Origin: Chryseosolibacter histidinae
GTDB lineage: Bacteria; Bacteroidota; Bacteroidia; Cytophagales; Cyclobacteriaceae
Direction of reading: 5' to 3'
DNA length: 33,672 nt
Assembly: GCF_018598225.1 (NCBI RefSeq)
Contig: NZ_JAHESF010000059.1
Span: 1-33,672 of the forward strand
The notes under the pieces are model-generated. The model was not told the origin of the DNA, did not search any database, and worked only from the letters and a program-made list of their open reading frames with translations. The position numbers and the translations under genes were made by a program. Position 1 is the first letter of the stretch; each line of letters starts with the position of its first letter. Below are positions 4,125 to 26,343 of the stretch, piece after piece.

Positions 4125-4221
4125 AGCCAGGGGTCAGGAGGCAGGAGGAGCAGGTCTTCGATCGGACCGGTTTACAATCGTACTTCGTACCTCGTATTTT
4201 GTACCTGCATACCTCATACCT
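4125..4221. repeat. Heptamer tract between convergent genes
   Basis: Two short heptamer runs lie in the gap. The first (4125-4145) has three units ending in CAGG: AGCCAGG, GGTCAGG, AGGCAGG. The second (4179-4221) has six units of the form YRTAYYT: CGTACTT, CGTACCT, CGTATTT, TGTACCT, then CATACCT with one extra leading G, and CATACCT. I see no inverted partner for either run. The tract begins 11 nt after the response-regulator stop. Unit length and one-base slippage match the paired elements elsewhere in the window. Confidence 0.75.
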
Positions 4222-4268
4222 GGATATCTCCCCGCCGGTCTCCGCGACCCTTCGAACGATAGCACTTT

Positions 4269-4808
4269 TCAACCAGCCACTACGTTGCCGGCTTTCGGTT
4301 TTCGTTTCAGCAGCAGGGCGCTGATGAGCGTGATGATCAGTGCCAGAGGTAGCACCTCAGCATACGTGACGAGCAAAAAGAACAGGGGATTCTTATAGTT
4401 CTCTTTGAAGTCGGCCATTTCTGCGGTTTTCTGTTGTAGCTCGGCCGCGGTTGCTCCGTCAAGTCGTTCCACGTACAGAACGTGTTGGATGTATGAATCT
4501 AAAAACTCCGGGAACAGAGATTTAACAGTCCACCAACCAGCCAGCACATAGATGGTAGACGCGATCAGGGAAATGTAAAATCCGATCTTGAAGGCGCCAC
4601 CAAACGTGATGAACCCGCCGTTGTATTTTTCGCGGTGATTCCTGATGCCCACAAAAATAAAAGAGAAGGCCGCTACCATCCCGGCGTAGCCAAGCACGTC
4701 GTTGCCTTTCATCTCAGGGTTGGCACAACATATCGATGCCGCATAAACCATCATGGCGGAGATGACGACCCCTGAGATCAGTCCAAATACCAATACATTT
4801 TTTTTCAT
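4269..4808 (-). CDS. DUF4199 membrane protein
   Basis: A 179-residue membrane protein with four predicted helices: about residues 5-25, 40-57, 70-93 and 143-166. The arrangement, with a polar loop of about 45 residues before the last helix, fits the DUF4199 family common in Bacteroidota. The function is unknown. It is the same strand as, and downstream of, a membrane-anchored LuxR regulator; DUF4199 genes are often beside such small regulators, suggesting a shared envelope or signalling role. The gap of 125 nt to the upstream gene leaves room for its own promoter. Confidence 0.75.
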   Translation of the reverse strand: MKKNVLVFGLISGVVISAMMVYAASICCANPEMKGNDVLGYAGMVAAFSFIFVGIRNHREKYNGGFITFGGAFKIGFYISLIASTIYVLAGWWTVKSLFPEFLDSYIQHVLYVERLDGATAAELQQKTAEMADFKENYKNPLFFLLVTYAEVLPLALIITLISALLLKRKPKAGNVVAG

Positions 4809-4933
4809 TGTTAAAAGTGTTAATTCTTTGTTAGCTCAACGGGCTCAAAAATGCGGCATTTACCCGGTTTTCCGTTCATACCAAAGGTTGATTTGATGGT
4901 GATGGGCCGGTCTCAGTCGAAAGTACGAGGCGC

Positions 4934-5413
4934 TCAGGGGATGATGCCGAGCTGCTTGGCCTGGTTGATGGCCTGGGTTCTTCTTTCAACACCCATTTTA
5001 TCGAAGAGATTGTTGGCGTGCGTCTTCACGGTGCTGAGCGATAAAAATAGCCGGTCTGCTATTTCCTGGTTGCTCAACCCCTGGGCCATCAGCTGAAGCA
5101 CTTCGAGCTCGCGTTTGCTGAGGTTGAGGCGGTTGAGCTCCGTTTCATTCATGGTGAAACCGACATTTTTCTCCACCATCACTTCCTTCTCTATTACTAC
5201 GATCTTTTCTTTGGGTTTGGCGAGCTTTAGCGCCACCCAGATGCCGATGCCTGTGAAGATCAGCGCGATGGCACCATTGTACACTTCGAAGGCATGGTCA
5301 ATGATCACCAGCCGCAGCTTGAGCCAGTTGAGCAGCACCAGCAGTATCGCCAGCGAAATACCGTAGATGATAATATGCTTTTTCCCCTTCAGAAAATTAG
5401 ACGCCATTGGCAT
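4934..5413 (-). CDS. Membrane-anchored LuxR-type transcriptional regulator
   Basis: A 159-residue protein with two N-terminal membrane helices (about 12-28 and 43-62), a charged linker rich in Val/Glu/Lys, and a C-terminal LuxR/GerE helix-turn-helix (about 98-155: LSKRELEVLQLMAQGLSNQEIADRLFLSLSTVKTHANNLFDKM). There is no receiver domain. Met1 and Met3 are both possible starts. A DNA-binding domain tethered to the membrane could respond to envelope state; the neighbouring DUF4199 protein is a candidate partner by context only. Confidence 0.87.
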   Translation of the reverse strand: MPMASNFLKGKKHIIIYGISLAILLVLLNWLKLRLVIIDHAFEVYNGAIALIFTGIGIWVALKLAKPKEKIVVIEKEVMVEKNVGFTMNETELNRLNLSKRELEVLQLMAQGLSNQEIADRLFLSLSTVKTHANNLFDKMGVERRTQAINQAKQLGIIP

Positions 5414-5442
5414 ATCCGTGATTGTTCGCTCTAAAATAAATG

Positions 5443-5518
5443 TTTCCCGCAGATTTCGCTGATGAACGCAGATTGAAATGCAATTTAATCAGCGCCAATC
5501 CGCGCGATCTGCGGGAAA
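5443..5518. repeat. Foldback element, CGCNGAT family, copy 1
   Basis: Perfect 12-bp outer arms TTTCCCGCAGAT (5443-5454) and its complement (5507-5518). Each arm continues as three CGCNGAT units whose starts are spaced 9 and then 10 nt: left arm at 5448, 5457 and 5467, and the right arm has the same 9-10 phasing on the other strand. It lies between the start of the LuxR gene and the stop of the YdeI-like gene. GGGAAATGGTT, at the edge of the right arm, is repeated once just after it. Confidence 0.85.
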
Positions 5519-5537
5519 TGGTTTTACGGGAAATGGT

Positions 5538-6116
5538 TCAATGGAATTTCTCACCTTTTGCCAGCATTTCAATAATCTCTTTCATGCGCTTTTCTCTTGT
5601 CTCTTGTTTTTTTGCGGTCTGAAGGCGAAATCCAATAGAGAAAAGGTTGGTCTTATTGAGACCTTTGAAAAACGCTTCTGCCTTTTTGTTTTTGCGCAGC
5701 TCTTTTAGAAAGTCTTCAGGTATGGTCATTTTGCTCGGGGAATCGTATGCCTTATCCCAACTACCATCGGCTTTGGCTTTTTCGATAACTTTTAACCCTG
5801 CAGGCTTCATTCTGCCTTCGTTGATCAGTCTTTCGACATGCCCGATATTTATTTTGGACCAAACACTTTTTGCGCTTCGGGGACAAAATTTTTGCAGCCA
5901 GGCTTGTTCGTCATGCGCTTGTTTTTGGCCATCAATCCACCCGTAGCAAAGCGCTACGTCAAGTGCTTCTGCATAGCTGATGGTCTTTTTCCCCGAATCT
6001 TTCTTGAATATTTTGAGCCAAAGCCCGTTGGAGCTATCGTGATTCTTTATGAGCCAGGTTTCAAATGCCTCGGCCGTTTTAAATTCTTTTGTTGGAAGCG
6101 TATTTAATTTAGTCAT
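5538..6116 (-). CDS. YdeI/OmdA-family protein
   Basis: A 192-residue soluble protein of the YdeI/OmpD-associated (OmdA) family. Supporting stretches are the N-terminal FETWLIKNHDSSNGLWLKIFK, ALDVALCYGWIDGQ, PRSAKSVWSKINIGHVERL and the C-terminal helical part with KLSKKEREKR-like content seen here as TAKKQETREKRMKEIIEML. Some members have been linked to bacteriocin tolerance or membrane-stress phenotypes; the molecular function is unknown. It appears monocistronic, with a repeat element just downstream of its stop. Confidence 0.85.
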   Translation of the reverse strand: MTKLNTLPTKEFKTAEAFETWLIKNHDSSNGLWLKIFKKDSGKKTISYAEALDVALCYGWIDGQKQAHDEQAWLQKFCPRSAKSVWSKINIGHVERLINEGRMKPAGLKVIEKAKADGSWDKAYDSPSKMTIPEDFLKELRKNKKAEAFFKGLNKTNLFSIGFRLQTAKKQETREKRMKEIIEMLAKGEKFH

Positions 6117-6228
6117 ATGACCGTGGCTTTTTTGTTCGATGTGCTTGTTATTAACGTCCGGATAATACGCGAATGTCTTATATTCCCTTTATATATTCAA
6201 AACGTGCCCTTAACGCTGGTGAATTTGA

Positions 6229-6236
6229 TACCTTTG
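6229..6236 (+). promoter_or_regulatory. Putative Bacteroidota -7 element
   Basis: TACCTTTG matches the Bacteroidota -7 consensus TAnnTTTG and lies 27 nt before the ATG at 6263. I see no clear TTG at the expected -33 position, so support is partial. It would place transcription start downstream of the alternative ATG at 6173, favouring 6263. Confidence 0.45.
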
Positions 6237-6262
6237 GGGTTGGAAGGGCAAAGGAATGTTCT

Positions 6263-6664
6263 ATGAAAAACTTATCCAGGTATCTCATACTTCTCATAAT
6301 ACTAAGCTGCACTGTAAATGATCCGCCAGGCATTGACGAGATCGTAAGCCAGGGCAATTATAAGATCGAATGCAGGTACCAGGGATGTTTTGGTGGCGGA
6401 ACTGCTTTGTTGGAGATAGAGAACTTCAATAAGGCGACGTATACAAATGACAGCGGATTACAGCGGGAGAAGAAACAAATTGTCTGGAATGCGAAAAAAG
6501 ACTCTCTTGTCAGAGAATTCTTTAAAGTTGGAATAACTTTCAATGATACAGTCGGCTCGTGCACCACAACGTCATCGTACAGGCTGAGCCATTTCACGCA
6601 TGTGGTAAAATTTGACGACCTGGATTGTGCGATGAATGAAAAATTTGGTGCGCTGTTAGAGTGA
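6263..6664 (+). CDS. Small lipoprotein of unknown function
   Basis: From ATG 6263 the product is 133 residues. Its signal peptide MKNLSRYLILLIILSC ends at a likely lipidated Cys16. A longer frame from 6173 would place 30 non-signal residues in front and was rejected. The mature part has Cys residues in ECRYQGCFGGG, GSCTTTSS and DDLDCAM, which could form disulfides in the periplasm. I do not recognise a family. It converges on the membrane AraC gene, with a half repeat element in the gap. Confidence 0.7.
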   Translation: MKNLSRYLILLIILSCTVNDPPGIDEIVSQGNYKIECRYQGCFGGGTALLEIENFNKATYTNDSGLQREKKQIVWNAKKDSLVREFFKVGITFNDTVGSCTTTSSYRLSHFTHVVKFDDLDCAMNEKFGALLE

Positions 6665-6666
6665 TA

Positions 6667-6699
6667 CTATCTGCGCTAATCCGCGCCATCCGCGGGAAA
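6667..6699. repeat. Foldback element, CGCNGAT family, single arm inside the AraC gene end
   Basis: Read on the minus strand, TTTCC is followed by three CGCNGAT units spaced 9 and 10 nt, the same phasing as the copies at 5443 and 26265. No second arm is seen nearby. The arm encodes the last residues (FPADGAD) and the TAG stop (6676-6678) of the AraC-family gene, so the gene's present end is supplied by repeat sequence. Confidence 0.8.
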
Positions 6700-7839
6700 C
6701 ACATCCGAAGCCCTAAACTCCGACGGCGTCATCCCCGTGATCTTCTTGAACGCATTGTTGAACGACGACTTCGAGCTATACCCCACCTGGTCGGCGATCT
6801 CTTCAACCTTGATGTTGCGGCGTTCTTTCAACAGCTTCTTGGCTTCGTCCACGCGGTAGCTGGCCGTCATTTCGAAAAAGTTCTTGCCGAGACCTTCATT
6901 GATCACTTGCGATAGGGTATGCACCGTTGTGCCCAGGCGTGTTGAAAGATCGGGCAGTGAAAAGCCCGCGCTTAGAAAAGGTTTTTCCTGCTCCATTACT
7001 TCTGTGAGCTTTTGCAACAGGCTCCGATGCAGCTCCGGTGTTACGCTGGAACCCTTGTACTTTTGTGGCTCTGCCAGCGAAGGTTGTCTGAAGAAACCGG
7101 ACTGGCCGATCACGCTGAAGCTCGTCAGGTAGATGGTCACGGCGAGGTACGCCGCCAGCCAATGATCGCCGGTATCGTTCACATTATACATTTTGATCAC
7201 CAGTATCAGCACAATGACAGAGATCACCTCCAGAACACCACGCTGCAGCTTGCGTAGCACAGGGTTTGCCGGACGCAGAAACGACTCTTTACGATACTTG
7301 AAAGCTTTTATTATTTCTATAAGTGAAAGCACCAAATACAACGCAAGGCTGGTTAAGGTGAGCAGCGTGTGGTGGTCGGTGATCCAGAAGATCCTGCCAT
7401 CACCGCGGTCATAAGTATACTCTTTTAAAGGCAACCCCGGCTGATACGATTCGATCCATGAGTTGTATTTCACTACTTCAGGCTGTATGAGAAATGGAAC
7501 GATGCACGCTGTATATACCAGCACGAAGGCTAGGTGCCAGTAATGTTTCTTCTCCACCTTGCCGTGAATAAGGCTCAGCACCAGCAGGTAAAAGCACGGA
7601 CCGATGGCAAATGGAAAGGGTTCAGAGAAATCTACGAGGTAAAGGCATTTCACAATATAGCCGGTGTACATGAGAAAGATCTCCACGAGACACAACGCCA
7701 TTGAAAGCAGCATGAGCCCGTGAAAAACATTGGCATCCGACTTTCTGTTCTCCTTTGAAAAAAAGAAAACGCAGAGGAACACCGCCTGTACAATACCCAG
7801 GAACATGAACACAGCGAAAAGATCGAGCCTGTATTCCAT
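6676..7839 (-). CDS. Membrane-bound AraC-family transcriptional regulator
   Basis: A 387-residue protein. Residues 1-235 hold about seven hydrophobic helices, and the C-terminal 100 residues form an AraC/XylS double helix-turn-helix (FFEMTASYRVDEAKKLLKE, then VEEIADQVGYSSKSSFNNAFKKITGMTPSEF). This multi-helix plus AraC layout is common in Bacteroidota and suggests a sensor that controls transcription from the membrane. It is the last gene of a minus-strand operon with the EEP-fold protein 12 nt upstream. Its final residues and stop come from a repeat arm. The signal sensed is unknown. Confidence 0.88.
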   Translation of the reverse strand: MEYRLDLFAVFMFLGIVQAVFLCVFFFSKENRKSDANVFHGLMLLSMALCLVEIFLMYTGYIVKCLYLVDFSEPFPFAIGPCFYLLVLSLIHGKVEKKHYWHLAFVLVYTACIVPFLIQPEVVKYNSWIESYQPGLPLKEYTYDRGDGRIFWITDHHTLLTLTSLALYLVLSLIEIIKAFKYRKESFLRPANPVLRKLQRGVLEVISVIVLILVIKMYNVNDTGDHWLAAYLAVTIYLTSFSVIGQSGFFRQPSLAEPQKYKGSSVTPELHRSLLQKLTEVMEQEKPFLSAGFSLPDLSTRLGTTVHTLSQVINEGLGKNFFEMTASYRVDEAKKLLKERRNIKVEEIADQVGYSSKSSFNNAFKKITGMTPSEFRASDVFPADGAD

Positions 7840-7851
7840 TGTACGGCCGGT

Positions 7852-8694
7852 TTATTTTTTCGGCAGCGAGAGCTCTACCAACACGGGCAAATGATCGGAG
7901 GGGTAATTTTTGCCGTCGTTATCGGGGAGCACCTTGTAATTGCTGGCGGCCCACTCTGGTGTATGGAAAATGTAATCGATGGGCCTGCAGGTGATGGAAT
8001 TCACGGTGAAGCTGCAGAAGGTACCTGGCGGATCTTGTGGCGCGGGATCGATCAACGTCAGGCTGGATTTATCCATGATGGTTTTGTACGGAAGCTCGTC
8101 GCGCGTGCAGTTGAAGTCGCCTGTGATGACCACCGGAAGGCCTCTGCCGAGATCGAGCGCCTTCGTCTTGAGCAGTGTAGCGCTCTTGGTGCGTGATTCG
8201 CGGCCGATATGATCGAAGTGTGTGTTGATGAAGAAAAACTCTCTGCCACTTTTCTTATCGCGCATCCTGGCCCAGGTGGCTACGCGGGTGAGCGCCGCAT
8301 CCCAGCTCTTGCTGCCAGCCACGTCAGGTGTTTCAGAGAGCCAGAAGGTGCCCTGGGCAAGAATGTTGAAACGCTCTTTTTTGTAAAGGATGGCCGAGTA
8401 TTCTCCTTTTTCCTTTCCATCTTCCCTGCCAACACCGAGAGACCCGTAAGCAGTGACGTTGTTGGTGAGGTCTTGCAATTGATTGTGCATTGCTTCTTGT
8501 ACGCCGAGCAGATCGGGGTCGTATTTTCTGATCAGGTCATATACCTTTTCTTTTCTGCTGCTCCACTGGTTGATGCCGTCGCCGGGGTTGTCGTAGCGGA
8601 TGTTGTAGGTCATAACGGTTACGGACTGCGCGAATGCCGTCAATGCACCCAATACAAAAAGAAATGTGATAAAAGATCGTCTGCTTAAATACAT
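7852..8694 (-). CDS. Secreted endonuclease/exonuclease/phosphatase-family protein
   Basis: A 280-residue protein with a Sec signal ending ALTAFAQ. The EEP (DNase I-like) fold motifs are all present: VMTYNIRYDN (metal-site Asn), LGVQEA (metal-binding Glu), FFINTHFDHIG, VVITGDFNCT (Asp/Asn), PIDYIF and YPSDHLPV (catalytic His). It should be an active metal-dependent phosphodiesterase or phosphatase outside the cytoplasm. The substrate (nucleic acid, phospholipid or inositol phosphate) cannot be read from the sequence. It lies 4 nt after the upstream unknown and 12 nt before the AraC gene. Confidence 0.9.
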   Translation of the reverse strand: MYLSRRSFITFLFVLGALTAFAQSVTVMTYNIRYDNPGDGINQWSSRKEKVYDLIRKYDPDLLGVQEAMHNQLQDLTNNVTAYGSLGVGREDGKEKGEYSAILYKKERFNILAQGTFWLSETPDVAGSKSWDAALTRVATWARMRDKKSGREFFFINTHFDHIGRESRTKSATLLKTKALDLGRGLPVVITGDFNCTRDELPYKTIMDKSSLTLIDPAPQDPPGTFCSFTVNSITCRPIDYIFHTPEWAASNYKVLPDNDGKNYPSDHLPVLVELSLPKK

Positions 8695-8698
8695 ACTG

Positions 8699-9448: not shown

Positions 9449-9491
9449 AGGATTATTAAGTTAATGAAAGTTTAACTTGCTCGCACAAATT

Positions 9492-11917: not shown

Positions 11918-11927
11918 GCTTAAAGTT

Positions 11928-12176
11928 AGTTGACAATTGACAAAGACTCAATCCGATTTCAAGGCTTGTGCTGATGAAGAGTCCATGGTCGATGGTCCAT
12001 AGTCCATAGTCGTGCAGTGTTAAGCATCATTACCGTCTTACAATCGAAGGGTGCCTTGTTCACCTAACCTTAACTGCCATGGACCATCGACCATGGACTA
12101 TGGACTTTCCTAACCGACAGCACGAATGTGATACTGACTCTAACCGTTGTCAACTGCCTCTTGTCAATTGTCAATT
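11928..12176. repeat. Foldback element, RRTTGAC family, copy 1 (outer)
   Basis: The right arm (12144-12176, minus strand) reads as heptamers AATTGAC, AATTGAC, AAGAGGC, AGTTGAC and then AACGG. The left arm (11928-11949) has AGTTGAC, AATTGAC and AAAGACTC, and degenerates after that. TTGACAATTGACAA is a perfect 14-bp inverted match between arms. The right arm contains the stop codon of the NTF2-like gene (12171-12173); the left arm begins 11 nt before the sigma-factor start codon. A second element of another family sits inside its spacer. Confidence 0.85.
11980..12106. repeat. Foldback element, RGTCSAY family, copy A (nested)
   Basis: Two 28-nt arms of exactly four heptamers each. With a = AGTCCAT, b = GGTCGAT and c = GGTCCAT, the left arm (11980-12007) is a-b-c-a and the right arm (12079-12106, minus strand) is a-a-b-c. 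A perfect 20-bp match joins 11981-12000 with 12079-12098. The spacer is 71 nt and shows no reading frame. The element lies wholly inside the RRTTGAC element at 11928-12176. Confidence 0.9.
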
Positions 12177-12593
12177 ATCATAATACGTCGCGTCTTTCAC
12201 AATCAACCCATCCTTAAAAGTCAGGATCGTGGCAATGGGAAGCCGGAAGCTGCTGCCATCGGGTGCTGTTCCGGACGAGACAAATTCAACGGTCACCTTA
12301 TCGCCGGAAGCGTAAAGCCCTGTTACTTCATCATGAACATCGGGAAACATCTTCTCAAGATCAGCGTATTTGGCAGCGATCTCGTTCCTGGTTTTGCTCA
12401 CATGATCCATGCCGAATGACGGGTCGAGAAACGATGCAGGTTCAGTGTAGAACGATGCCATGGCGTTCCAGTCGTGACGGTTAAACGCTTCGAACATTTG
12501 CTTTGCCTTGGCTGTATTCACGTCATGATCGGTGCCGGGTGGCTGGCAGCCTGCCACGCAAACTGCCAGTATTATCACGCAGACCGTTCTCAT
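12171..12593 (-). CDS. NTF2/SnoaL-like lipoprotein
   Basis: A 140-residue protein with a short signal and lipobox VAGC (Cys16). The rest is an NTF2-like cone fold: AKQMFEAFNRHDWNAMASFYTEPASFLDP, then DEVTGLYASGDKVTVEFVSSGT, and FRLPIATILTFKDGLIVKDATYYDN. SnoaL-like domains may be enzymes or ligand-binding proteins; no catalytic assignment is possible. TGATG couples its start to the upstream DGPF gene stop. The stop codon falls inside a repeat arm. Confidence 0.85.
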   Translation of the reverse strand: MRTVCVIILAVCVAGCQPPGTDHDVNTAKAKQMFEAFNRHDWNAMASFYTEPASFLDPSFGMDHVSKTRNEIAAKYADLEKMFPDVHDEVTGLYASGDKVTVEFVSSGTAPDGSSFRLPIATILTFKDGLIVKDATYYDN

Positions 12594-12937
12594 CAGGGCA
12601 TGTCAACTTTCATTACCTCGCGTACCTCAACACTTCCGCCGAGCTCATAGTCAGGACAATCTTTCGCCATCTGTACGGCTTCATCGATGTTTTTGGCATT
12701 CACCACAAAGAAACCTGTGGTCACTTCTTTACTCTCGGCAAAAGGGCCGTCAGTGACAGTTTTTTTTGAGCCGGCCACTGTTTTACCTCCGGGCAGAAGT
12801 GGTTCGCCCGACACATATTTTCCTTCTTTTGTCAGCTTCTCGACCCAGGCCAGCCATTTCTGCATCTGGGCTCCTTGTTGTTGGGCAGGAAGGTGGCTCA
12901 CATCACCGCCGCGGAATAGAAACATGTACTTTTCCAT
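12593..12937 (-). CDS. YCII-related DGPF-domain protein
   Basis: From ATG 12937 the protein has 114 residues, usual for the family. An upstream frame extension to 13072 is repeat-derived and was rejected. It begins MEKYMFLFRGGD, has PLLPGGKTVAG and the hallmark VTDGPFAESKE, and ends in a ferredoxin-like alpha-beta fold (GFFVVNAKNIDEAVQMAKDCP). DGPF proteins are genetically linked with ECF42 sigma factors, as here, and are typical targets of them. Enzymatic activity is not established for this group. The stop and the next start share one base (TGATG). Confidence 0.92.
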   Translation of the reverse strand: MEKYMFLFRGGDVSHLPAQQQGAQMQKWLAWVEKLTKEGKYVSGEPLLPGGKTVAGSKKTVTDGPFAESKEVTTGFFVVNAKNIDEAVQMAKDCPDYELGGSVEVREVMKVDMP

Positions 12938-13051
12938 AGTTTGTAAAGTTTTGGTTGAACATAATTTACCCCATGACGGGCGGATTGACACCTTTCGGAC
13001 AAAGATTCGGAAATTTTTTCTAGATGTCTCCCCGGAATTGCGGGATGGATT

Positions 13052-13229
13052 AGTCCACGGTCCACAGACCACAGTCCACGGCCGGGCGAGTCAGTCGTCA
13101 GACCACTGACATGGCCAGGGTTGCCGCGCAGTGGTCCGACGACTATCCGGGATAGCTATTGCAAATACGAAGCACAACCGTTGACTTACGTTGAAACTGC
13201 CGTGGTCCGTGGACCGTCGACCGTGGACT
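13052..13229. repeat. Foldback element, RGTCSAY family, copy B
   Basis: Two 28-nt arms of four heptamers. The left arm (13052-13079) has units AGTCCAC, GGTCCAC, AGACCAC, AGTCCAC. The right arm (13202-13229, minus strand) has AGTCCAC, GGTCGAC, GGTCCAC, GGACCAC. The right arm ends 2 nt from the stop codon of the transporter gene. The 122-nt spacer contains a separate 52-nt hairpin (13093-13144). Of the 294-nt gap at 12938-13231, nothing else is recognisable. Confidence 0.9.
13093..13144. repeat. AGTCGTC hairpin, copy 1 (nested in copy B)
   Basis: The 16-bp arms are AGTCGTC + AGACCAC + TG (13093-13108) and, on the other strand, AGTCGTC + GGACCAC + TG (13129-13144), matching at 15 of 16 positions with a 20-nt loop. 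The second heptamer is the same as one used in the surrounding RGTCSAY element. A second copy with the same arms lies at 19140-19193. Confidence 0.88.
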
Positions 13230-13231
13230 CT

Positions 13232-14491
13232 TTACTTCTTCCCGGCCTTGTAACCTCTGGCTGCAAAATAAAGGATGTACAGGTAGCAGGGGATCATGAT
13301 AGCATAGGCTTCACGTGTGCCCCATGACTGAGAAAGCTTGCCGTAGATGAGCGGCAAAATGGCACCGCCTGCAATGGCCATCACCAGCAATGCCGAACCG
13401 ATCTTGGTGAATCGCCCGAGACCATCGATGGCCAGCGGGAATATGGCAGGCCACATCAGCGAGTTGGCAAGTCCCAGCAATGCGATGAACGTTACAGAAG
13501 TTTTTCCGTTGGTCACCACTGCTGCCAACGTGAATATCACACCCAGCACGGCACTGATGCGCAACGCCATGGATTGCGAGAGAAACTTGGGAATGGTGAA
13601 AATACCGATCACATAACCCACCAGCATGAAGGCCAGCGTGAACTGTGTATAAAATCTTGCTTCGCTCAGCTCGATGCCAAGTGACTTTCCATAACTGATA
13701 ATGGTGTCTCCGGCCATCACCTCAACGCCTACGTAGAGGAACAACGCCAGCACACCCAGCAACAGGTGCGGAAACTGGAGCACACTGGTTTTTCCGGAAG
13801 CGTCGCTGCGTTTGGTCTCATCTCCATTCTCGTCTTTGATGTCGGGCAGTGAAGAGAACAGGATCGCCACAGCGAGGAAAGCCAGCACACCTGAAATGAT
13901 GATATAAGGAACAACAACACGGCTGGCCAGCTCGTCGAGCTTCGCATCCCTGGCAACGGTATCCATCGCACCCAGGCTTTTTTCGAGGGCGTCGGCGTCT
14001 TTCAGTGCAATGTAGCCAAAGATCAAACCGGCGAGAATGCCCGCTACTTTATTGCAGATGCCCATGATGCTGATGCGTTTTGCGGCGCTTTCGATGGGGC
14101 CGATGATGGATACATAAGGATTGGAAGCAGTCTGAAGCAACGCAAGCCCGGTTCCGATAATGAACAGGCCTACCAGAAACATATTGAAGTTACGGGCATT
14201 GGCAGCGGGCACAAAAAGGATTGCACCCAGCGCCATGATGAGCAACCCTATGGCCATGCCTTTTTTATAGCCGGTCCTGCTCAGTACATAAGAAGACGGC
14301 AGCGCCATCACAGTGTACGCGATGAAGAAAGCAGTCGCTACAAGATAAGATTGAAAATCGGTTTCAAGCTGACAAGCAATTTTCAGGTAGGGGATCAGTG
14401 TACCGTTGACCCACGTGACAAAACCGAAAATAAAAAATAGCGCCCCGATGATGATCATCGGAAGGGTATACGATTTTTGCTGTGAGGTCAT
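13232..14491 (-). CDS. FucP/GluP-type sugar:proton MFS transporter
   Basis: A 419-residue protein with 12 predicted membrane helices. Motifs of the FucP/glucose-galactose porter branch are FFIFGFVTWVNGTLIPYLK in helix 1, AYTVMALPSSYVLSRTGYKKGM, and GTGLALLQTASNPYVSIIGP in helix 4. It should import a hexose or related sugar with protons; the exact sugar is not readable. It is divergent from a nucleotidyltransferase and sugar-kinase pair, suggesting import followed by activation. The intergenic region holds three dyads that could be operators. Confidence 0.88.
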   Translation of the reverse strand: MTSQQKSYTLPMIIIGALFFIFGFVTWVNGTLIPYLKIACQLETDFQSYLVATAFFIAYTVMALPSSYVLSRTGYKKGMAIGLLIMALGAILFVPAANARNFNMFLVGLFIIGTGLALLQTASNPYVSIIGPIESAAKRISIMGICNKVAGILAGLIFGYIALKDADALEKSLGAMDTVARDAKLDELASRVVVPYIIISGVLAFLAVAILFSSLPDIKDENGDETKRSDASGKTSVLQFPHLLLGVLALFLYVGVEVMAGDTIISYGKSLGIELSEARFYTQFTLAFMLVGYVIGIFTIPKFLSQSMALRISAVLGVIFTLAAVVTNGKTSVTFIALLGLANSLMWPAIFPLAIDGLGRFTKIGSALLVMAIAGGAILPLIYGKLSQSWGTREAYAIMIPCYLYILYFAARGYKAGKK

Positions 14492-14516
14492 TGATACAGG
14501 TTTTAGGTGGTGATAA

Positions 14517-14627: not shown

Positions 14628-14651
14628 CAAAACCGAAATAACTAAAAGACA

Positions 14652-15569: not shown

Positions 15570-16621
15570 TGGGTCTTTCACCTGAAAGTCTGATCCCCGG
15601 CATCATCAGTCACTATGGATTATCGGCCGGTAATTTCAGCATTGAACGCCTCGGCTCAGGCCACATTCACTATACATACAAACTGAACGCAAAAAAAAGT
15701 TATGTGCTTCAGCGTGTGAACAAGAATGTGTTCAAAGAGCCTGAAGTGATCGCGTCAAACCTGCGTGTTGCAGCCGATTACCTGGGCAAAAACTTCACAG
15801 ATTTTCTTTTTCTCTCGGCCATCGAGACACTCGAAGGCAAGGAAATGGTATACGACGCAGAAGGTTTTCCCTGGCGCCTGTTTCCTTTCTTCGATAATAC
15901 TTTCACCGTCGATAAGGTCTCAACAAAGGAGGAAGCTTTCAGCGCGGCAGCCGAGTTTGCGCGCCTGAGCCGTTACCTGAAAGATGTCGATACATCGCGC
16001 TTCAGCCCCACCATTCCGGGGTTCCACGACCTGAGTCTGCGGTACAGGCAATTTGAGACAGCGCTGAAAAACGCGACACCCGAGCGGATCCAGCGTGCAC
16101 AGGAAGCCATTGCGCAAGCAAAAGCATTCAGCCACCTGGTAACGGAATACGAAACGTTGATCAGCAGCGGAAGCCTGAAGCTGCGCATCACACACAACGA
16201 CACAAAGATCAACAACGTGCTGTTCAACGCCAACACGGGTAAAGCCCTTTGTGCCATCGACCTGGATACACTCATGCCCGGCTATTTCATTTACGATATC
16301 GGTGACATGATCAGGACTTTTGTGAGCCCCGTGGATGAGGAAGAAAAAGATGTGAGCAAGATCACGGTGCGCCAGGATATTTACCGCGCGCTGGTGGATG
16401 GCTACCTCTCGCAGATGAATGATTGCCTTACGCCCGAAGAGAAAAAAGCGATCCCTTTTTCAGGTATGATGATGACCTACATCATGGCGCTGCGCATGCT
16501 GGCTGACTTTCTGAACGGCGATATCTATTATCATATCAAATACGAAGGCCAGAACCTGGTGCGGGCCACCAACCAGCTGAGGCTGCTGCAGGAACTGAAG
16601 ACGGTAAACGGTAATCAGTGA
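15569..16621 (+). CDS. Phosphotransferase-family sugar kinase (NahK-like)
   Basis: A 350-residue protein of the aminoglycoside-phosphotransferase/choline-kinase fold. Its N-lobe GSGHIHYTYKL and YVLQRVNKNVFKEPE, catalytic ITHNDTKINNVLF, and metal-binding ALCAIDLDTLMPG resemble N-acetylhexosamine 1-kinase. I infer it makes a sugar-1-phosphate for the coupled nucleotidyltransferase. ATG 15569 (TAATG overlap) was preferred to TTG 15563. The last residues TVNGNQ and the stop are encoded by a heptamer repeat, so the original C-terminus may have been replaced or extended. Confidence 0.83.
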   Translation: MGLSPESLIPGIISHYGLSAGNFSIERLGSGHIHYTYKLNAKKSYVLQRVNKNVFKEPEVIASNLRVAADYLGKNFTDFLFLSAIETLEGKEMVYDAEGFPWRLFPFFDNTFTVDKVSTKEEAFSAAAEFARLSRYLKDVDTSRFSPTIPGFHDLSLRYRQFETALKNATPERIQRAQEAIAQAKAFSHLVTEYETLISSGSLKLRITHNDTKINNVLFNANTGKALCAIDLDTLMPGYFIYDIGDMIRTFVSPVDEEEKDVSKITVRQDIYRALVDGYLSQMNDCLTPEEKKAIPFSGMMMTYIMALRMLADFLNGDIYYHIKYEGQNLVRATNQLRLLQELKTVNGNQ

Positions 16622-16728
16622 TCGGTGATCGGGTAATCAGTAATCGGTGATCAGTATTCGGTGATCCGTTAAACGCTTTTCATTATAAACTCTCGAAACC
16701 GATTACTGAATACCGGTTACTGATTACT
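16603..16728. repeat. Foldback element, RGTRATC family
   Basis: The left side (16603-16666) is a run of nine units: GGTAAAC, GGTAATC, AGTGATC, GGTGATC, GGTAATC (with one extra G), AGTAATC, GGTGATC, AGTATTC, GGTGATC. The right arm (16701-16728, minus strand) has four heptamers: AGTAATC, AGTAACC, GGTATTC, AGTAATC. The spacer is 34 nt. The left run begins inside the kinase gene and supplies its stop. This is the longest unit run in the window. Confidence 0.9.
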
Positions 16729-16825
16729 ATTTTTACTTAGCAACGCTCGGCTTCACTCAATTTGCACTAAACCTCCGTTCGAGCAACTTTAAATTTTAAA
16801 CCTTAAATTTTAAACTTCCAGACCC

Positions 16826-17563
16826 ATGAAAAAAATATCCTTTAAAACTTTCATGTTGATGATGATGTTGATGACAGGCAGTGTCTCCGTAGTGAATGCA
16901 CAAGTGAAAACTTCAGACCTTACGGGCGCCTGGGAAACGGGCACCGAAGTAAAAATGACCAGGATCTATGCCGATCAGATCTTTACGGTGACGGTGTATA
17001 ACGTGAAGGATAAACAATTCATTTCCACGGCAGGCGGGCGATGGAGAGTGAACGGTAATACCATTGTTGAAACTTTCGAATTCAACTCGGCAAAACCTGA
17101 GCTGGTAGGCACCGAAGTAAGCACACCCGCTTCGCTGAAAGGCGGCAAGCTTACGCTGATGATCAACGGTCGGAAAGAAGAATGGACGAAGCTCGACGAC
17201 GGAACACCCGGAAAATTGTCGGGCGCCTGGCTGATCACCGGACGTGTGAGAGATGGAAAAATGGCCACCATGACTCCGGGCGCACGCCGCACCATGAAGA
17301 TCCTTTCAGGCACGCGCTTTCAGTGGATCGCTTACAACGTTGACACAAAAGAATTCTCCGGAACCGGCGGCGGCACTTACACCACCGAGAATGGCAAGTA
17401 CACGGAGAACATCCTTTTCTTTTCCAGGGATAACAGCCGCGTTGGCGCAAGCCTTAGTTTCGATTTTGCACTGGAAGACGGCAACTGGCGTCACAAAGGA
17501 CTGAGCAGCAAAGGTGAGGCCATCGAAGAGGTGTGGACCAAACGTGAGAAGATCGGACTTTGA
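16826..17563 (+). CDS. Secreted protein with two lipocalin-like repeats
   Basis: A 245-residue protein with a Met-rich Sec signal ending VVNAQ. The mature part is an internal duplication. Copy 1 (about 31-122) runs from [11 protein letters not shown] through [23 protein letters not shown] to KEEWTKLDD; copy 2 (about 130-240) runs from [11 protein letters not shown] through [21 protein letters not shown] to IEEVWTKRE. Each copy looks like a small beta-barrel of the lipocalin-like type that opens with L-x-G-A-W. A ligand-binding role in the periplasm is plausible but unproven. Its TGA stop overlaps the queG start (TTGA). Confidence 0.8.
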
Positions 17564-19137: not shown

Positions 19138-19139
19138 AG

Positions 19140-19193: not shown

Positions 19194-19202
19194 AAAGATC
19201 AT

Positions 19203-19230
19203 AAAAAAAGCCCTGATCGCTCAGGGCTTT
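19203..19230 (-). terminator. Rho-independent terminator
   Basis: A perfect 10-bp stem AAAGCCCTGA / TCAGGGCTTT (19207-19216 and 19221-19230) with loop TCGC. On the minus strand it is followed by a T run (complement of 19203-19209), fitting termination after the 61-residue gene. The plus strand also has a T run after it (19234-19240), so it could work both ways. Confidence 0.85.
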
Positions 19231-19250
19231 CCATTTTTTTCATGACTTGT

Positions 19251-19436: not shown

Positions 19437-19644
19437 TTTTTTAATAACTGTAAAGTTTAAAAAGTTATAAGCTAACAACCGTTAAGTTAAAAAATGTTTG
19501 GAGAAACCGGAAGAATTTGCCGCCAAAATTTTTACCCCTCCCATTTTCTCACTTTTTCTGGCTGTTGCATAGATTTCAGGCTATTTTTCGACAATTTTTG
19601 TTCCCTGGTATGGGTTTATAGGTGGAAGATCACCCAGATTTAGC

Positions 19645-21093: not shown

Positions 21094-21100
21094 GTTCGGT

Positions 21101-21198
21101 AGTTGACAATTGACAAACGAACAGTTGACAAAGGTTTGAGTAGGCTTATTGAATGTGTCAAGCGCCATTGTCAATTGCCTTTTTGCCAACTGTCAACT
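21101..21198. repeat. Foldback element, RRTTGAC family, copy 2
   Basis: Two 34-nt arms with identical 7-7-8-7-5 phasing. The left arm (21101-21134) has AGTTGAC, AATTGAC, AAACGAAC, AGTTGAC, AAAGG. The right arm (21165-21198, minus strand) has AGTTGAC, AGTTGGC, AAAAAGGC, AATTGAC, AATGG. The divergent third unit is in the same place in both arms and in the copy at 12144-12176. The element begins 7 nt after the batD stop and ends 20 nt before the aroC start. Confidence 0.9.
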
Positions 21199-21218
21199 TT
21201 TCTTATCTTCGGCCCCGC

Positions 21219-22298: not shown

Positions 22299-22397
22299 TC
22301 TTTACCTTTACTATGTAGAATCTGTTCCCCGGGTGGCGCCGCTCCATCACGGCATGAGTTTTACCCTTACTCAGGTACGTCTAAACATCATTTATTT

Positions 22398-22613
22398 ATG
22401 AGAACTGTAGCGATCTTACTCATCGTGATTGGAGGAATCATGACAGTGTTCACGGGATTTAATCTTGTGACCAAAAAAGAAGTGGCAGATATCGGACCTA
22501 TTGAGATCAATAAAACTGAGAAAACGCCGATTTATTGGTCACCGGTAACCGGCGCGATCTTGCTGGTGGCGGGCATTATCGTGCTGGCTACAAGCAAGCG
22601 CAATACGGCCTGA
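22398..22613 (+). CDS. Small two-helix membrane protein, unknown function
   Basis: A 71-residue protein with membrane helices at about 4-22 and 48-65, separated by a polar loop (KKEVADIGPIEINKTEK). The charge pattern and the terminator directly after it support a real gene. Short double-helix membrane proteins of this form are common in Bacteroidota; I do not know a function. Confidence 0.7.
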   Translation: MRTVAILLIVIGGIMTVFTGFNLVTKKEVADIGPIEINKTEKTPIYWSPVTGAILLVAGIIVLATSKRNTA

Positions 22614-22642
22614 AGATCTTGCCAGGATGAGTTCACATTTTT

Positions 22643-22678
22643 AAAAGGCACCGGGTAACACCGGTGCTTTTTATTTTA
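22643..22678 (+). terminator. Rho-independent terminator
   Basis: GCACCGG (22648-22654) pairs with CCGGTGC (22661-22667) around loop GTAACA; flanking A and T runs extend the stem with one bulged G, and five T residues follow. It lies 30 nt after the stop of the small membrane protein. Confidence 0.8.
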
Positions 22679-22801
22679 CGGGTTTGCCGAACAAAGAACT
22701 TCAGGAAACGTTGATTTCTTACATGCGAAAGGCCGCCCGGCTGTATGGCGTGAATGCGCCCATGAATAAGCCGACTTTTATAAAGGCCCAAGAAGCACGG
22801 T

Positions 22802-23290
22802 ATGAGAAAAATTGCAGTAGGATTTTTGGCGTGTATAGCGATGAGCGGAGCATTGGCCAATGACAGCATGCCTGGAAAAGTGGTGTCGGTTGTTGACGGT
22901 AACACCATCGAGATGCACGGCAGTGATCAGGAAAAATACATCATTGTGCTGGCCGGCATCGACAGCCCAGAGCTCACACAGAAGTATGGTGAAGAGGCGA
23001 AGCGGTACCTGGAGAAATTGCTTCTGCAAAAAGAAGTCACTGTTCATTTTCAGGGAAAAGACCGCAAAGGAAATTATCTCGCGGTAGTGCTCAAAGGAAA
23101 GATCGACGCGCGTGTTGAGCTGCTGAAAGAAGGCCTTGCATGGACCGCCGAAAAAGATCCGTTGCCTGAGTTGGAAGCACATCGTACCGCGGCGCAGGAA
23201 AAAGGAAGAGGGCTCTGGAAAGAAGAAAACCCCACGCCGCCTTGGATCCATCGCCGCCAACAGTCGACAATGCAGCCTAAAAGCAGTTAA
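22802..23290 (+). CDS. SNase-fold protein lacking key catalytic residues
   Basis: A 162-residue protein with a Sec signal (to about ALAND) and a staphylococcal-nuclease-like OB fold: GKVVSVVDGNTIEM, VLAGIDSPEL, QKYGEEAKRYLEKLL, KDRKGNYLAVVL, LLKEGLAW, AAQEKGRGLW. Aligned with S. aureus nuclease, Asp40 and Glu43 are kept (Asp54, Glu57), but Asp21 becomes Asn34, Arg35 becomes Val49 and Arg87 becomes Asn91. The two arginines stabilise the phosphate in catalysis, so nuclease activity should be weak or absent. It may bind nucleic acid or protein instead. No partner gene is obvious. Confidence 0.85.
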   Translation: MRKIAVGFLACIAMSGALANDSMPGKVVSVVDGNTIEMHGSDQEKYIIVLAGIDSPELTQKYGEEAKRYLEKLLLQKEVTVHFQGKDRKGNYLAVVLKGKIDARVELLKEGLAWTAEKDPLPELEAHRTAAQEKGRGLWKEENPTPPWIHRRQQSTMQPKSS

Positions 23291-23352
23291 AGAGTTGAAA
23301 TACCTTTTTAGTGGTAACAATTTTAGGTAAGTTATAGAGTTATTATAGCGCT

Positions 23353-23730
23353 ATGCGTTTCAAGATCTTCCTTATCATATTGCTTGCCTGCAGCACGGCG
23401 CTATCTTTTGGCCAGTCGCGTAAAAAGAACAAGAAGAGATCCAAAAGAACAGAGCAGTCTTCGCAGCCACAGCAGCCCACAGCGTTGAACCCGCTTCCGC
23501 AGAAAGAGTATGCACCCAAAGCGCGTAAAGCCACGAAGGGTGCAACCTATGAATCAGAACAGCAATACTATGAGCGCATGGAAGCGCTGGCAAAAACCCG
23601 CCGCAAGAACGAAACGCTTCAACAGAAACCGCAGTACTCCGATCCCATGTACTTCGGTCACAAACGCCCACCCAAAAAACGCAAACCAGGAAAGATGAAG
23701 TATTGTAAAGAGTGTGGGCTACGACATTAG
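23353..23730 (+). CDS. Basic secreted protein, unknown function
   Basis: A 125-residue protein with a Sec signal (MRFKIFLIILLACSTALSFGQ) and a very basic mature part: SRKKNKKRSKR, PKARKATKG, and RPPKKRKPGKMKYCKECGLRH at the end. The C-terminal CKEC could bind metal. Tyr-rich EQQYYERMEAL lies in the middle. It may associate with polyanions such as LPS or extracellular DNA, but that is inference. The TAG stop shares bases with the first heptamer of a foldback element. Confidence 0.7.
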   Translation: MRFKIFLIILLACSTALSFGQSRKKNKKRSKRTEQSSQPQQPTALNPLPQKEYAPKARKATKGATYESEQQYYERMEALAKTRRKNETLQQKPQYSDPMYFGHKRPPKKRKPGKMKYCKECGLRH

Positions 23731-23879
23731 TCCACAGTCGACGGTCCACAGTCCACGGTAGTGTAGTGTGACCTCAATAAATCGTCCTTGGCATCTTGCG
23801 CCAGTAGGCGAAAAACAGTAGGCAGTACTCCCATTCAAACACCTCACGGCCGTGGTCTGTCGACTGTGGACCGTGGACT
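23729..23879. repeat. Foldback element, RGTCSAY family, copy C
   Basis: Two 28-nt arms of four heptamers. The left arm (23729-23756) has AGTCCAC, AGTCGAC, GGTCCAC, AGTCCAC. The right arm (23852-23879, minus strand) has AGTCCAC, GGTCCAC, AGTCGAC, AGACCAC. Units two and three are swapped between the arms. The first two bases of the left arm are the last two of a TAG stop. The 95-nt spacer shows no frame and no similarity I can see to the spacers of copies A and B. Confidence 0.9.
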
Positions 23880-23967
23880 CTTCCCTCTCTACCGATCGTT
23901 AGTTCTTCCCCGTTACCTGGGCACGACTTCTACTTCTAATTTCAAAAGTTCGTCGTAACTTGCTCTG

Positions 23968-24633
23968 ATGAACATCGCCTCCTACATCGAGCATACAAAC
24001 CTGAGTCCTACGCTCAACATTCATGCGATCGATAAGCTGGTGGACGAGGCCCGGCAGTTCGGTTTTCTCGGCGTTTGTGTTCCACCATTTTGGGTGAAGC
24101 GGGCGCAGCGCGAAATTGGCAACGACAATATTTTGCTTGTCACCGTGGCTGGTTTTCCTCTCGGCTACAACATGACCGAGACAAAACTGGACGAAATAAG
24201 TCGTGCAATCGATAACGGTGCAGATGAGATCGATCTCGTGTGGAACGTCACTTCGTTCAAAACCGGCATACCATGGACCAAGATCGAGATAGCAAAGTGC
24301 AGCAAATTAGCGCATGATCATCAGAAGCTGTTGAAAGTAATCATCGAGACTGCGTATCTTTCAGACTCCGAAATAGAAAGAGCCTGTAAAATGTGTGCAG
24401 ACGCCGGTGTTGACATCGTTAAAACATCAACCGGTTTTGCGCCAGCAGGTGCAACTGTTGAACACGTTACGTTGATGAGAAAAAATTTACCACCCGTTGT
24501 AGGGATCAAAGCTTCAGGAGGCATCAAGACCTATGACCAGGTGCTTGCCATGATCCATGCGGGTGCCACCAGGATAGGTACGTCATCTGGTGTAACGATA
24601 CTTGAGTCCACTAACCCTAAATCCAGACCATAA
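23968..24633 (+). CDS. deoC: Deoxyribose-phosphate aldolase
   Basis: A 221-residue class I aldolase cleaving 2-deoxyribose-5-phosphate to glyceraldehyde-3-phosphate and acetaldehyde. The Schiff-base Lys152 is in VDIVKTSTGF, the second Lys181 in VVGIKASGG, and the catalytic Asp in ADEIDLVWN. The N-terminal IEHTNLSPT matches the family start. Only 2 nt separate it from the aldehyde dehydrogenase gene, so they form an operon. It serves deoxynucleoside breakdown. Confidence 0.95.
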   Translation: MNIASYIEHTNLSPTLNIHAIDKLVDEARQFGFLGVCVPPFWVKRAQREIGNDNILLVTVAGFPLGYNMTETKLDEISRAIDNGADEIDLVWNVTSFKTGIPWTKIEIAKCSKLAHDHQKLLKVIIETAYLSDSEIERACKMCADAGVDIVKTSTGFAPAGATVEHVTLMRKNLPPVVGIKASGGIKTYDQVLAMIHAGATRIGTSSGVTILESTNPKSRP

Positions 24634-24635
24634 TA

Positions 24636-26255
24636 ATGAGCCAAACGCTTGCAAATGTTTTCCCGACGGAAAGCAACATCCCTGAACAATTCAGAATTTC
24701 TCAATCCATCGAACAGCGCGAATACCTGATCAATGGAGAGCTGAAGATCTGGACTGGCAGCCAGAACCCTGTGCTGAGCCCTGTCTTTGTGAAAGAAGGT
24801 GATGCATACAAACAGAAGATCATCGGCAGCACGCCGTTGCTCACGTCAAAAGAATCGCTCGAAGCGCTCGACGCCGCCGTGAAAGCGTACGACATGGGTC
24901 ACGGACTGTGGCCAACACTGAGCGTAACCAGCCGCATCGAGCACGTAGAAAAATTTCTGACAGCCATGAAGGCGAAGCGCGCCGAGGTGGTGAAGCTGCT
25001 GATGTGGGAGATCGGCAAAACGCTGAAGGACTCAGAAAAAGAATTCGACCGCACGTGCGATTACCTTGTCGACACCATCAAGGCTTTGAAAGACCTCGAT
25101 CGCAATTCCGCCAAGCTGGTGGAAGAGCAGGGCTTTATGGCGCAGATCCGTCGTGTACCCTTCGGTGTGGCGCTTTGTATGGGACCGTACAACTATCCGC
25201 TGAACGAAACCTTTACAACACTTTTCCCTGCGCTGATCATGGGCAACACAGTGGTGTTCAAACCCGCTAAATATGGTGTGCTGCTGATCAAACCTTTGCT
25301 GGAAGCTTTCCGCGATAGTTTCCCTGCCGGCGTGATCAATATCATTTACGGTAAAGGAAGAGAGACCGTGGGCGCGCTGATGGAAAGCGGAAAGATCGAT
25401 GTGTTCGCCTTCATCGGCACGAACAGGGGAGCCAATGATCTGAAGAAGCTTCATCCCAAGCCGCACCGGTTGAAATCCATCCTGGGCCTCGATGCGAAAA
25501 ATCCTGCCATCGTTCTTCCGGATGCCGACCTCGACAACGCTGTGGCTGAGTGCATCACCGGGTCACTGTCGTTCAACGGTCAACGCTGTACGGCGCTGAA
25601 GATCCTGTATGTGCATAAAGATATTGTGAAGCCCTTCATCGAGAAGTTCAAGGCCGAGATCAAAAAACTGAAACCGGGCATGCCGTGGGATGCCGGTGTG
25701 GGACTCACGCCACTGCCGGAGCCAGGTAAAGTAGAGTTTCTCAGAGACCTGGTGGAAGACGCTAAAAAATATGGTGCCGAAGTGGTGAACGAAAACGGTG
25801 GCGAGTACCTGAACTCTTTCTATTATCCTGCCGTGGTGTATCCTGTTAACGATAAGATGAAGCTGTACTATGAAGAGCAGTTCGGCCCCGTGATCCCTAT
25901 TGTTCCGTTCGATAACGACGATGAGGCTATCCGCTACGTGGTGAACTCTAACTTCGGCCAGCAGGTGAGTATCTTCGGCACAGATTCGAAGCGTGTAGCC
26001 AGGCTGATGGATGCATTCGTTAACCAGGTGGGAAGGATCAACCTGAACACACAATCGCAGCGTGGACCGGATACATTCCCTTTCAACGGAAGGAAAGATT
26101 CTGCGGAAGGTACATTGTCAGTAGCAGATGCCCTGCGGGTGTTCTCCATCCGTACGCTGGTGGCCACGAAGACAACAGAAAACAATAAGCAGATCATGAC
26201 CTCAATCATCCGCAATCGTGAGTCTGCGTTCCTCAGCACAGATTATATCTTGTAG
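24636..26255 (+). CDS. GAPN-like NADP-dependent aldehyde dehydrogenase
   Basis: A 539-residue ALDH-superfamily protein of the type annotated as non-phosphorylating glyceraldehyde-3-phosphate dehydrogenase. The cofactor region has GPYNYPLNETFTTLFPALIMGN and VVFKPAKYG, and the catalytic Cys318 is in FNGQRCTALKI. The usual general-base Glu, 34 residues before the Cys in an ELGG motif, is Gly284 here (LGLDAKNPAIVL). Placed 2 nt after deoC, it could oxidise the aldolase product to 3-phosphoglycerate with NADPH formation. Acetaldehyde is an alternative substrate. The family call is firm; substrate is inferred. Confidence 0.85.
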   Translation: MSQTLANVFPTESNIPEQFRISQSIEQREYLINGELKIWTGSQNPVLSPVFVKEGDAYKQKIIGSTPLLTSKESLEALDAAVKAYDMGHGLWPTLSVTSRIEHVEKFLTAMKAKRAEVVKLLMWEIGKTLKDSEKEFDRTCDYLVDTIKALKDLDRNSAKLVEEQGFMAQIRRVPFGVALCMGPYNYPLNETFTTLFPALIMGNTVVFKPAKYGVLLIKPLLEAFRDSFPAGVINIIYGKGRETVGALMESGKIDVFAFIGTNRGANDLKKLHPKPHRLKSILGLDAKNPAIVLPDADLDNAVAECITGSLSFNGQRCTALKILYVHKDIVKPFIEKFKAEIKKLKPGMPWDAGVGLTPLPEPGKVEFLRDLVEDAKKYGAEVVNENGGEYLNSFYYPAVVYPVNDKMKLYYEEQFGPVIPIVPFDNDDEAIRYVVNSNFGQQVSIFGTDSKRVARLMDAFVNQVGRINLNTQSQRGPDTFPFNGRKDSAEGTLSVADALRVFSIRTLVATKTTENNKQIMTSIIRNRESAFLSTDYIL

Positions 26256-26264
26256 CAAAAAATG

Positions 26265-26343
26265 TTTCCCGCGGATTCCGCAGATTTGCGCAGATTTCTA
26301 AAAAAAATAAACTTCTGCGAAAATCTGCGAGATCTGCGGGAAA
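26265..26343. repeat. Foldback element, CGCNGAT family, copy 3
   Basis: The arms at 26265-26287 and 26321-26343 match at 20 of 23 positions. Each starts TTTCC and has CGCRGAT units whose starts are 9 then 10 nt apart, the same phasing as the copies at 5443 and 6667. It lies 9 nt after the gapN-like stop and 7 nt before the acylphosphatase ATG, so it may form a hairpin in the shared transcript. Confidence 0.87.

Follow-up and report, generated by a model that had tools for sequence, protein, structure and literature searches.

What are the short, phased repeats that lie between the genes of a 33,672-nucleotide stretch of DNA from Chryseosolibacter histidinae (NZ_JAHESF010000059.1; hereinafter the window, contig C77), and what accounts for their inverted pairs? 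The organism is a soil member of the Bacteroidota with a genome of 8,041,252 bases in 122 contigs, and one protein encoded in the window has its closest named relative in Chryseosolibacter indicus (84% identity). Tandem heptanucleotides also occur in cyanobacteria, as short tandemly repeated repetitive sequences (STRRs). A first reading of the window's letters (the original prediction) had held that several repeat families share one design, namely tandem heptamers of the general form RGTNNNC, four to an arm, in inverted pairs around variable spacers, and had suggested one replication or repair mechanism that spreads or diversifies the units. Having surveyed the window, the genome and its relatives, we lean towards the view that the arm-spacer-arm unit is probably a small, non-coding, non-autonomous mobile element, resembling miniature inverted-repeat transposable elements (MITEs) and REPINs, with heptamer-phased ends.

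The heptamer signal itself is strong. A self-similarity scan at a lag of seven recovered 78 clusters in 433,672 bases (400 kb plus the window) and none in one Markov-shuffled copy; lags of 14 and 21 came next, and no other lag gave more than six clusters. Eleven unit patterns (including CGCAGAT, with which nothing was found) retrieved 108 arms from the same bases and none from the shuffle, an excess over chance in keeping with what had been predicted. Across the whole genome, three consecutive RGTNNNC units (RGTNNNCx3) match 950 times, against 212 for the control, the same pattern read backwards. Further statistics come from 933,672 bases (about 934 kb, 12% of the genome), made up of a discovery sample of 533,672 bases that includes the window and 400,000 held-out bases, in which an arm was counted at three or more units, shorter arrays being left out. 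At least ten unit families are present (RGTCSAC, RGTCSAT, RGTTRCC, RGTRWTC, RGTACGR, AGYCAGR, RGTTTRA, RRTTGAC, GGAGTAA and TGAGAYA), and these ten yield 237 arms, of which 149 have exactly four units and 58 have three, the longest reaching nine. Four units is thus the mode, and the arm length of 28-34 nt foreseen for every family describes the commonest case rather than a rule. Similarly, RGTNNNC fits some families and fails as a general form: it accounts for 58 of 151 lag-7 arrays, is not matched by RGTCSAT, RGTACGR, AGYCAGR or RGTTTRA, and is matched only in part by RRTTGAC, whose window pair is indeed inverted but has two to three units per arm instead of four. The fourth family of the original prediction, CGCNGAT, has 17 TTTCCCGC ends in the 934 kb and four close pairs, all convergent, and 36 of its 43 short unit spacings are 9 or 10 nt; its phasing and its window pairs are real, but it does not share the heptamer design, and its phasing and TTTCCCGC end mark it as a separate one.

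Paired arms are almost always convergent. Among 69 neighbour pairs (same-family arms no more than 400 nt apart), 67 are convergent, two are same-strand and none is divergent; the held-out 400 kb alone gives 25 convergent and one same-strand pair of 26. The inverted pairing proposed at the outset is therefore upheld, all the paired families having convergent polarity, with seven words present as convergent arm pairs. A family-free test on the discovery sample gave 34 inverted neighbour pairs and one direct pair, against 14 inverted and 13 direct among 400 random array pairs. Spacer lengths are typical of the family (RGTTRCC 79-158 nt, RGTCSAT 44-104, RGTCSAC 73-201, RGTRATC 9-44 and RGTACGR 1-29). 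By our own rough gene caller, 135 of 143 arms in the discovery sample are intergenic, intergenic DNA being 15% of that sample, and among gaps of at least 60 nt the arm-bearing ones number 28 beside 46 between convergent genes, 47 beside 147 between tandem genes and 12 beside 57 between divergent genes (Fisher 5e-5, convergent versus divergent). The family means of the RNA folding z-score lie between -2.9 and -4.6, and the second base past the last unit is G in all 92 ends of three families. Some single arms are decayed pairs: among 103 unpaired arms, a partner of two or more units lies inward of 22 and outward of none.

The units within an arm also follow an order. Four-unit RGTCSAC arms have exactly one GTCGAC unit in 33 of 41 cases, and in all but one of the 33 (32) it stands second or third; RGTCSAT arms have exactly one GTCGAT unit in 20 of 29 (unit 2 or 3 in 19 of 20), and RGTTRCC arms exactly one GTTACC unit in 18 of 26 (unit 2 or 3 in 16 of 18). 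Identical adjacent units are rarer than in shuffles in RGTCSAC (13/145 versus 29.8), RGTCSAT (8/95 versus 20.8), RGTTRCC (19/144 versus 35.9) and AGYCAGR (4/67 versus 11.8), and are not rarer in RGTRATC, RGTACGR and RGTTTRA. With shuffling confined to each arm, the deficit has P <0.02 in three of the four families and 0.06 in RGTCSAT; the held-out bases by themselves show it clearly for RGTTRCC only (P 0.006 across arms). In RGTCSAC and RGTCSAT the two ends of an element are unlike. Of 38 elements (12 of them non-independent, retrieved by similarity to a window element), 20 carry exactly one odd unit in each end, always at position 2 or 3; in 18 of these 20 the ends disagree, one having it at position 2 and the other at position 3 (binomial P 0.0004). 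The 934-kb sample taken by itself gives 10 unlike elements and 2 alike. Mobile elements commonly have left and right ends that differ, the reverse of arms derived from each other. By eye, RGTTRCC elements often have an altered fourth unit, such as GGATAGCC, in one end, and three RGTRATC elements (window 16603-16728, C11:26542 and C11:62413) seemingly set GGTATTC/GGTAACC in one arm against GGTGATC/AGTAGTC in the other, possibly also unlike ends.

Two sets of copies with a common spacer and unrelated flanks were recovered. Three RGTTRCC elements on C34 (120370, 123226 and 124360) match one another at 75-86% identity from end to end, while their 40-nt flanks, at 53-65%, are at the level of random 40-mers (56+/-5%), and the local alignments run out where the arms do, or one base later. 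The left arms of the first two members differ by a one-unit rotation of three units, and their right arms are identical. Three RGTACGR elements on as many contigs (C11:127497, C26 and C34) likewise have a common spacer, in flanks that show no relation when compared by eye; one end of the third element is incomplete. Relatives of the window element at 23729-23880 occur on C111 and C36, almost full length and at 70-72% identity, and a weaker one on C78 (67%). Copies of spacer plus arms in unrelated surroundings suggest that the unit is mobile as a whole. A core motif within the spacers is too weak to define the element (RGTCSAC 4/13, RGTTRCC 3/21 and RGTCSAT 0/14, versus 11/305 intergenic windows; the Fisher test left RGTCSAT out).

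The distribution in other genomes is patchy. Two congeners have 1 and 5 RGTNNNCx3 matches against the 950 here (backward-pattern counts 45 and 69), and the window element has no match in either. In the congener G002, a different heptamer pair, CAATRAY, occupies the gap orthologous to window 23730-23968, where this genome has an RGTCSAC element; one of its arrays runs to about 24 units (at L088, about 24 AATCAAT units and an inverted partner array); the gap orthologous to window 12937-13232 is also array-bearing, and two further G002 arrays sit at sites that are array-free in this genome. Across the phylum, about 46 of 296 genomes have at least 20 RGTNNNC matches and three times the backward control, and about 14 show the reverse (by eye). 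Neighbouring RGTNNNC runs occur in five of twelve other genomes (G003, G019, G038, G133 and G168), with 7 convergent, 5 same-strand and no divergent pairs. One locus of G022 has a single RGTCSAC-like arm with its odd unit third, and another has two such arrays on the same strand. In G003 (e.g., C34:29585-29675) direct AGTNNNC arrays of 13-14 units have an ever-changing NNN, so that the fixed frame is CAGT plus three free bases.

A mobiliser was sought among genes of the Y1 family. This genome has six PF01797 (Y1) matches at E<=10, four of them over the cut-off, and one of five Y1 loci inspected (on C63) has an RGTACGR element about 0.5 kb away. At 20 Y1 loci from eleven genomes, lag-7 arrays lie within 1 kb at three (0.11 per kb near versus 0.07 far). 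Every one of the 12 genomes with at least 14 RGTNNNCx3 matches (ours included) has a strong Y1 gene (E<1e-17), as do 33 of 59 overall; the hypergeometric P of 0.0003 comes from cut-offs picked after the tables had been seen and is uncorrected for phylogeny. As the genes are not flanked by heptamers, we did not adopt a Y1/RAYT enzyme as the mobiliser. On C45, two RAYT-like genes 6 kb apart (122144-122953 and 128322-128984) have a 777-nt stretch that is 98% identical, a recent duplication, and their flanks bear other repeats. Among long-range pairs, of which 12 were listed, convergent RGTTRCC-type ends at C21:156035-157796 (L048:16035-17796) surround 1.7 kb with a gene for a 432-aa protein on the minus strand, which we take to resemble a surface protein with an S74-like region and which is possibly a passenger.

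If the units are mobile elements, each would measure about 60-260 bp, and its heptamer arrays would serve as two inward-facing terminal recognition regions able to fold into an imperfect hairpin. An enzyme supplied in trans would read the 7-nt-phased ends, and copies would arise by transposition. Several families differ in the heptamer word while keeping the polarity, the arms of about four units and the family-typical spacer length. We infer that movement would be slow or old, leaving the ends constrained and the spacers free to drift. A number of results weigh against this. The odd-unit asymmetry is absent from RGTTRCC (2 unlike versus 4 alike elements), which slightly lowers our confidence in a mobile element and slightly raises it for slippage. 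Of 50 spacers of at least 60 nt, 42 have no match of at least 18 nt in the 934-kb sample once nested arrays are excluded (8 have one, by our reading of 13 hits), and only 3 of 76 genome-wide matches to one element, itself included, are full length (40 of 208 candidates being scored). The members of the C34 triplet lie within about 4 kb, and may be local duplications. There is no clear target duplication at the element ends: the mean end direct repeat is 1.05 versus 0.83 re-paired for RGTTRCC and 0.86 versus 0.80 for RGTCSAT, and is below the re-paired value in the other four families. No empty site could be demonstrated, the nearest relatives being at 66-82% DNA identity. On the inner side of 81 of the 103 unpaired arms there is not even a two-unit partner within 260 nt. 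In some relatives lag-7 arrays are direct rather than inverted (inverted/direct neighbours: G002 6/9, G003 0/4, G038 7/3, G051 1/0; no neighbour pairs in G008, G052 and G022), and the inverted layout is therefore not universal. Lastly, no transposase was seen by eye in the open reading frames (ORFs) of three long-range regions, viewed without a domain search and one of them partly read. With no clear target duplications, an HUH-type or other non-duplicating mechanism would suit, though Y1 genes are not consistently linked.

That the arrays are heptanucleotide microsatellites, generated where they stand by polymerase slippage and retained for the effect of their structure (hairpin or G-quadruplex) on transcription or on the ends of mRNAs, we consider unlikely while granting it real weight. 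In many genomes the most frequent long simple repeats are heptamers, according to the available text of two reports (PMC4692102, PMC4679880), most spacers here are unrelated, and arms abut gene ends and favour convergent gene pairs. Slippage does not predict the same few words at many loci in a fixed polarity or copies with common spacers, and the scarcity of identical adjacent units in four of seven families is the opposite of fresh slippage. As for G-quadruplexes, the common units RGTCSAC, RGTTRCC, RGTRATC and RGTACGR contain no GGG and thus no G-tract; the four-unit length is left unexplained in these families, so G-quadruplexes are not its general reason. A less probable proposal is that each array offers a set of sites to a protein that binds DNA or RNA, the inverted dyad serving looping, nucleoid organisation or transcript processing and the sites spreading by selection. 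It would account for constant unit positions that are kept while the arms of one element are unmatched, as if single units were read, and for the convergent polarity that other words show in the five other genomes. The near absence of RGTNNNC arrays from two congeners fits a conserved function poorly, and common spacers require copying.

The inverted geometry and imperfect palindromes also bring to mind an origin of one arm from the other, through template switching or an inverted duplication at the replication fork. For this genome we reject it and hold it very improbable overall: the arms of one element are less complementary to each other than re-paired arms are (0.824 versus 0.847 for 61 pairs in five families, a value not reached in any of 5,000 permutations), in RGTCSAC and RGTCSAT because the two ends differ, and none of 20 four-plus-four pairs of these families has fewer than 3 mismatches. 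One close-matching pair in the relative G019 keeps such an origin open elsewhere. There is no sign that identical arms are avoided: three families have 4 identical pairs each, against 1.7-2.7 in column shuffles. A model in which the second arm keeps the unit order with each unit flipped was set aside, as the pooled match shows no excess (0.840 versus 0.837 re-paired), RGTCSAT alone giving 0.874 versus 0.857 (P 0.04). Of the mechanism first suggested, then, the spreading is supported by common spacers in unrelated flanks, a single replication or repair mechanism is not supported, and the arm comparison speaks against template switching or repair between the arms. Enzymes of the telomerase or DRT10 kind, which copy a short RNA template repeatedly, do exist (PMC12632851), and units that vary at fixed wobble positions could be imagined as their inserted products. 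We give a reverse transcriptase of this sort next to no credence: no RVT_1 domain (PF00078) was found at E<=0.001 in this genome, nor in 2 of 10 other heptamer-rich genomes (G008 and G019).

The window's own repeats are collected in Table 1; none of its sequence matches Rfam at gathering scores. Two arms reach into coding sequence: a unit of the RGTRATC left arm at 16603-16666 supplies the stop codon of an ORF ending at 16621, and the first two bases of the RGTCSAC end at 23729-23756 complete the TAG stop of an ORF ending at 23730. Families are also nested, with the RRTTGAC pair at 11927-12177 enclosing the RGTCSAT element and RGTACGR arrays lying inside the spacers of two RGTCSAC elements on C21 (C21:28062 and C21:53036).

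Table 1. Repeat arrays and elements of the window (positions in the 33,672-nt stretch)
Feature	Positions	Strand	Basis
Single RGTACGR-type array, no partner called	4178..4206	-	
Inverted CGCNGAT element, 9-10-nt phasing, different design	5443..5518	.	
RRTTGAC pair around RGTCSAT element, left arm	11927..11943	+	sequence
RGTCSAT element, left end, four heptamers	11980..12007	+	sequence
RGTCSAT element, 71-nt spacer	12008..12078	.	sequence
RGTCSAT element, right end, four heptamers	12079..12106	-	sequence
RRTTGAC pair, right arm	12161..12177	-	sequence
RGTCSAC element, left end	13052..13079	+	sequence
RGTCSAC element, 122-nt spacer	13080..13201	.	sequence
RGTCSAC element, right end	13202..13229	-	sequence
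RGTRATC element, left arm, nine units, two phase blocks (16603-16630, 16632-16666)	16603..16666	+	
RGTRATC element, right arm	16701..16728	-	sequence
Single RGTTTRA-type array, directly upstream of gene at 16826	16785..16817	-	
RGTCSAC element, end with GTCGAC as unit 2	23729..23756	+	sequence
RGTCSAC element, 95-nt spacer	23757..23851	.	similarity search
RGTCSAC element, end with GTCGAC as unit 3	23852..23879	-	sequence
Inverted CGCNGAT element, 9-10-nt phasing, different design	26265..26343	.	

More widely, we tentatively entertain the possibility that these repeats belong to a large and mostly unnamed class of mobile element whose mobiliser reads seven-base terminal words, and that many bacterial heptamer 'microsatellites' are its ends. 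In such a class the word would change (RGTCSAC, RGTTRCC and RGTRATC here, AGTNNGC in other genera, GGGAATC in Xanthomonas), while the polarity and the length of about four units would perhaps stay constant. The heptanucleotide repeats of Xanthomonas, cyanobacteria, Beggiatoaceae and Bacteroidetes have so far been ascribed to slippage, G-quadruplexes or regulation; if many of them are ends of mobile elements, then 'why seven, why four' becomes one question about a recognition system, answerable by comparing strains.

Several known systems resemble these elements in part. As in REPINs and BIMEs, short intergenic repeats form inverted, hairpin-capable pairs in many dispersed copies; unlike REPIN/RAYT systems, they are phased in heptamers, have no consistent Y1 gene link and lack a GT[AG]G foot (within -8..+11 of the outer end in 9 of 134 ends, versus 275 of 3,000 random 19-mers). 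For the RAYT subclass 2.6 of Bacteroidetes, the available text mentions 'atypical secondary structures' around the genes (PMC6006769). They are like MITEs in being short and non-coding with terminal inverted repeats and, in two sets of three only, in having copies in unrelated flanks, and unlike most MITEs in having no clear target site duplication. The BrickBuilt MITE of Porphyromonas gingivalis, also of the Bacteroidota, is comparably small and intergenic with inverted ends and tandem repetition; as far as its available description goes, its 23-nt tandem units lie between small inverted ends, whereas here the inverted ends are themselves the 7-nt tandem repeats (PMC4596501). The TAACTGA repeats, intergenic heptamers of Beggiatoaceae, Cyanobacteria and some Bacteroidetes, read on the other strand and in another phase as AGTTATC, that is, as RGTNNNC, and are direct in the accessible part of that report, with 169 direct sets and one indirect repeat in the BOGUAY genome (PMC4679880). 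AGTTATC arrays are present in the relative G056. In the partial texts on heptamer, MITE and REPIN repeats that we consulted, no convergent heptamer pairs were described for Bacteroidota. The nearest match is in Xanthomonas, and it overturns the original impression that no named element fits: for two species (campestris/axonopodis), the available text of Rehm et al., 2015 (PMC4692102), which also mentions heptanucleotides of Calothrix, counts 186 and 183 GGGAATC-type arrays; most have four units, close convergent pairs number 70 and 75, and about 90% lie between genes, seldom divergent ones. It discusses G-quadruplexes as their basis, with no sign of movement reported in that text. Degenerate heptamers, the four-unit mode, convergent polarity, intergenic position and avoidance of divergent gene gaps are common to both systems, so that the layout is already in print. 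Set against the single G-rich word described in the accessible pages for Xanthomonas, what this genome adds is the number of words per genome, common words free of GGG, two families in which the ends are unlike, and copies that have a spacer in common.

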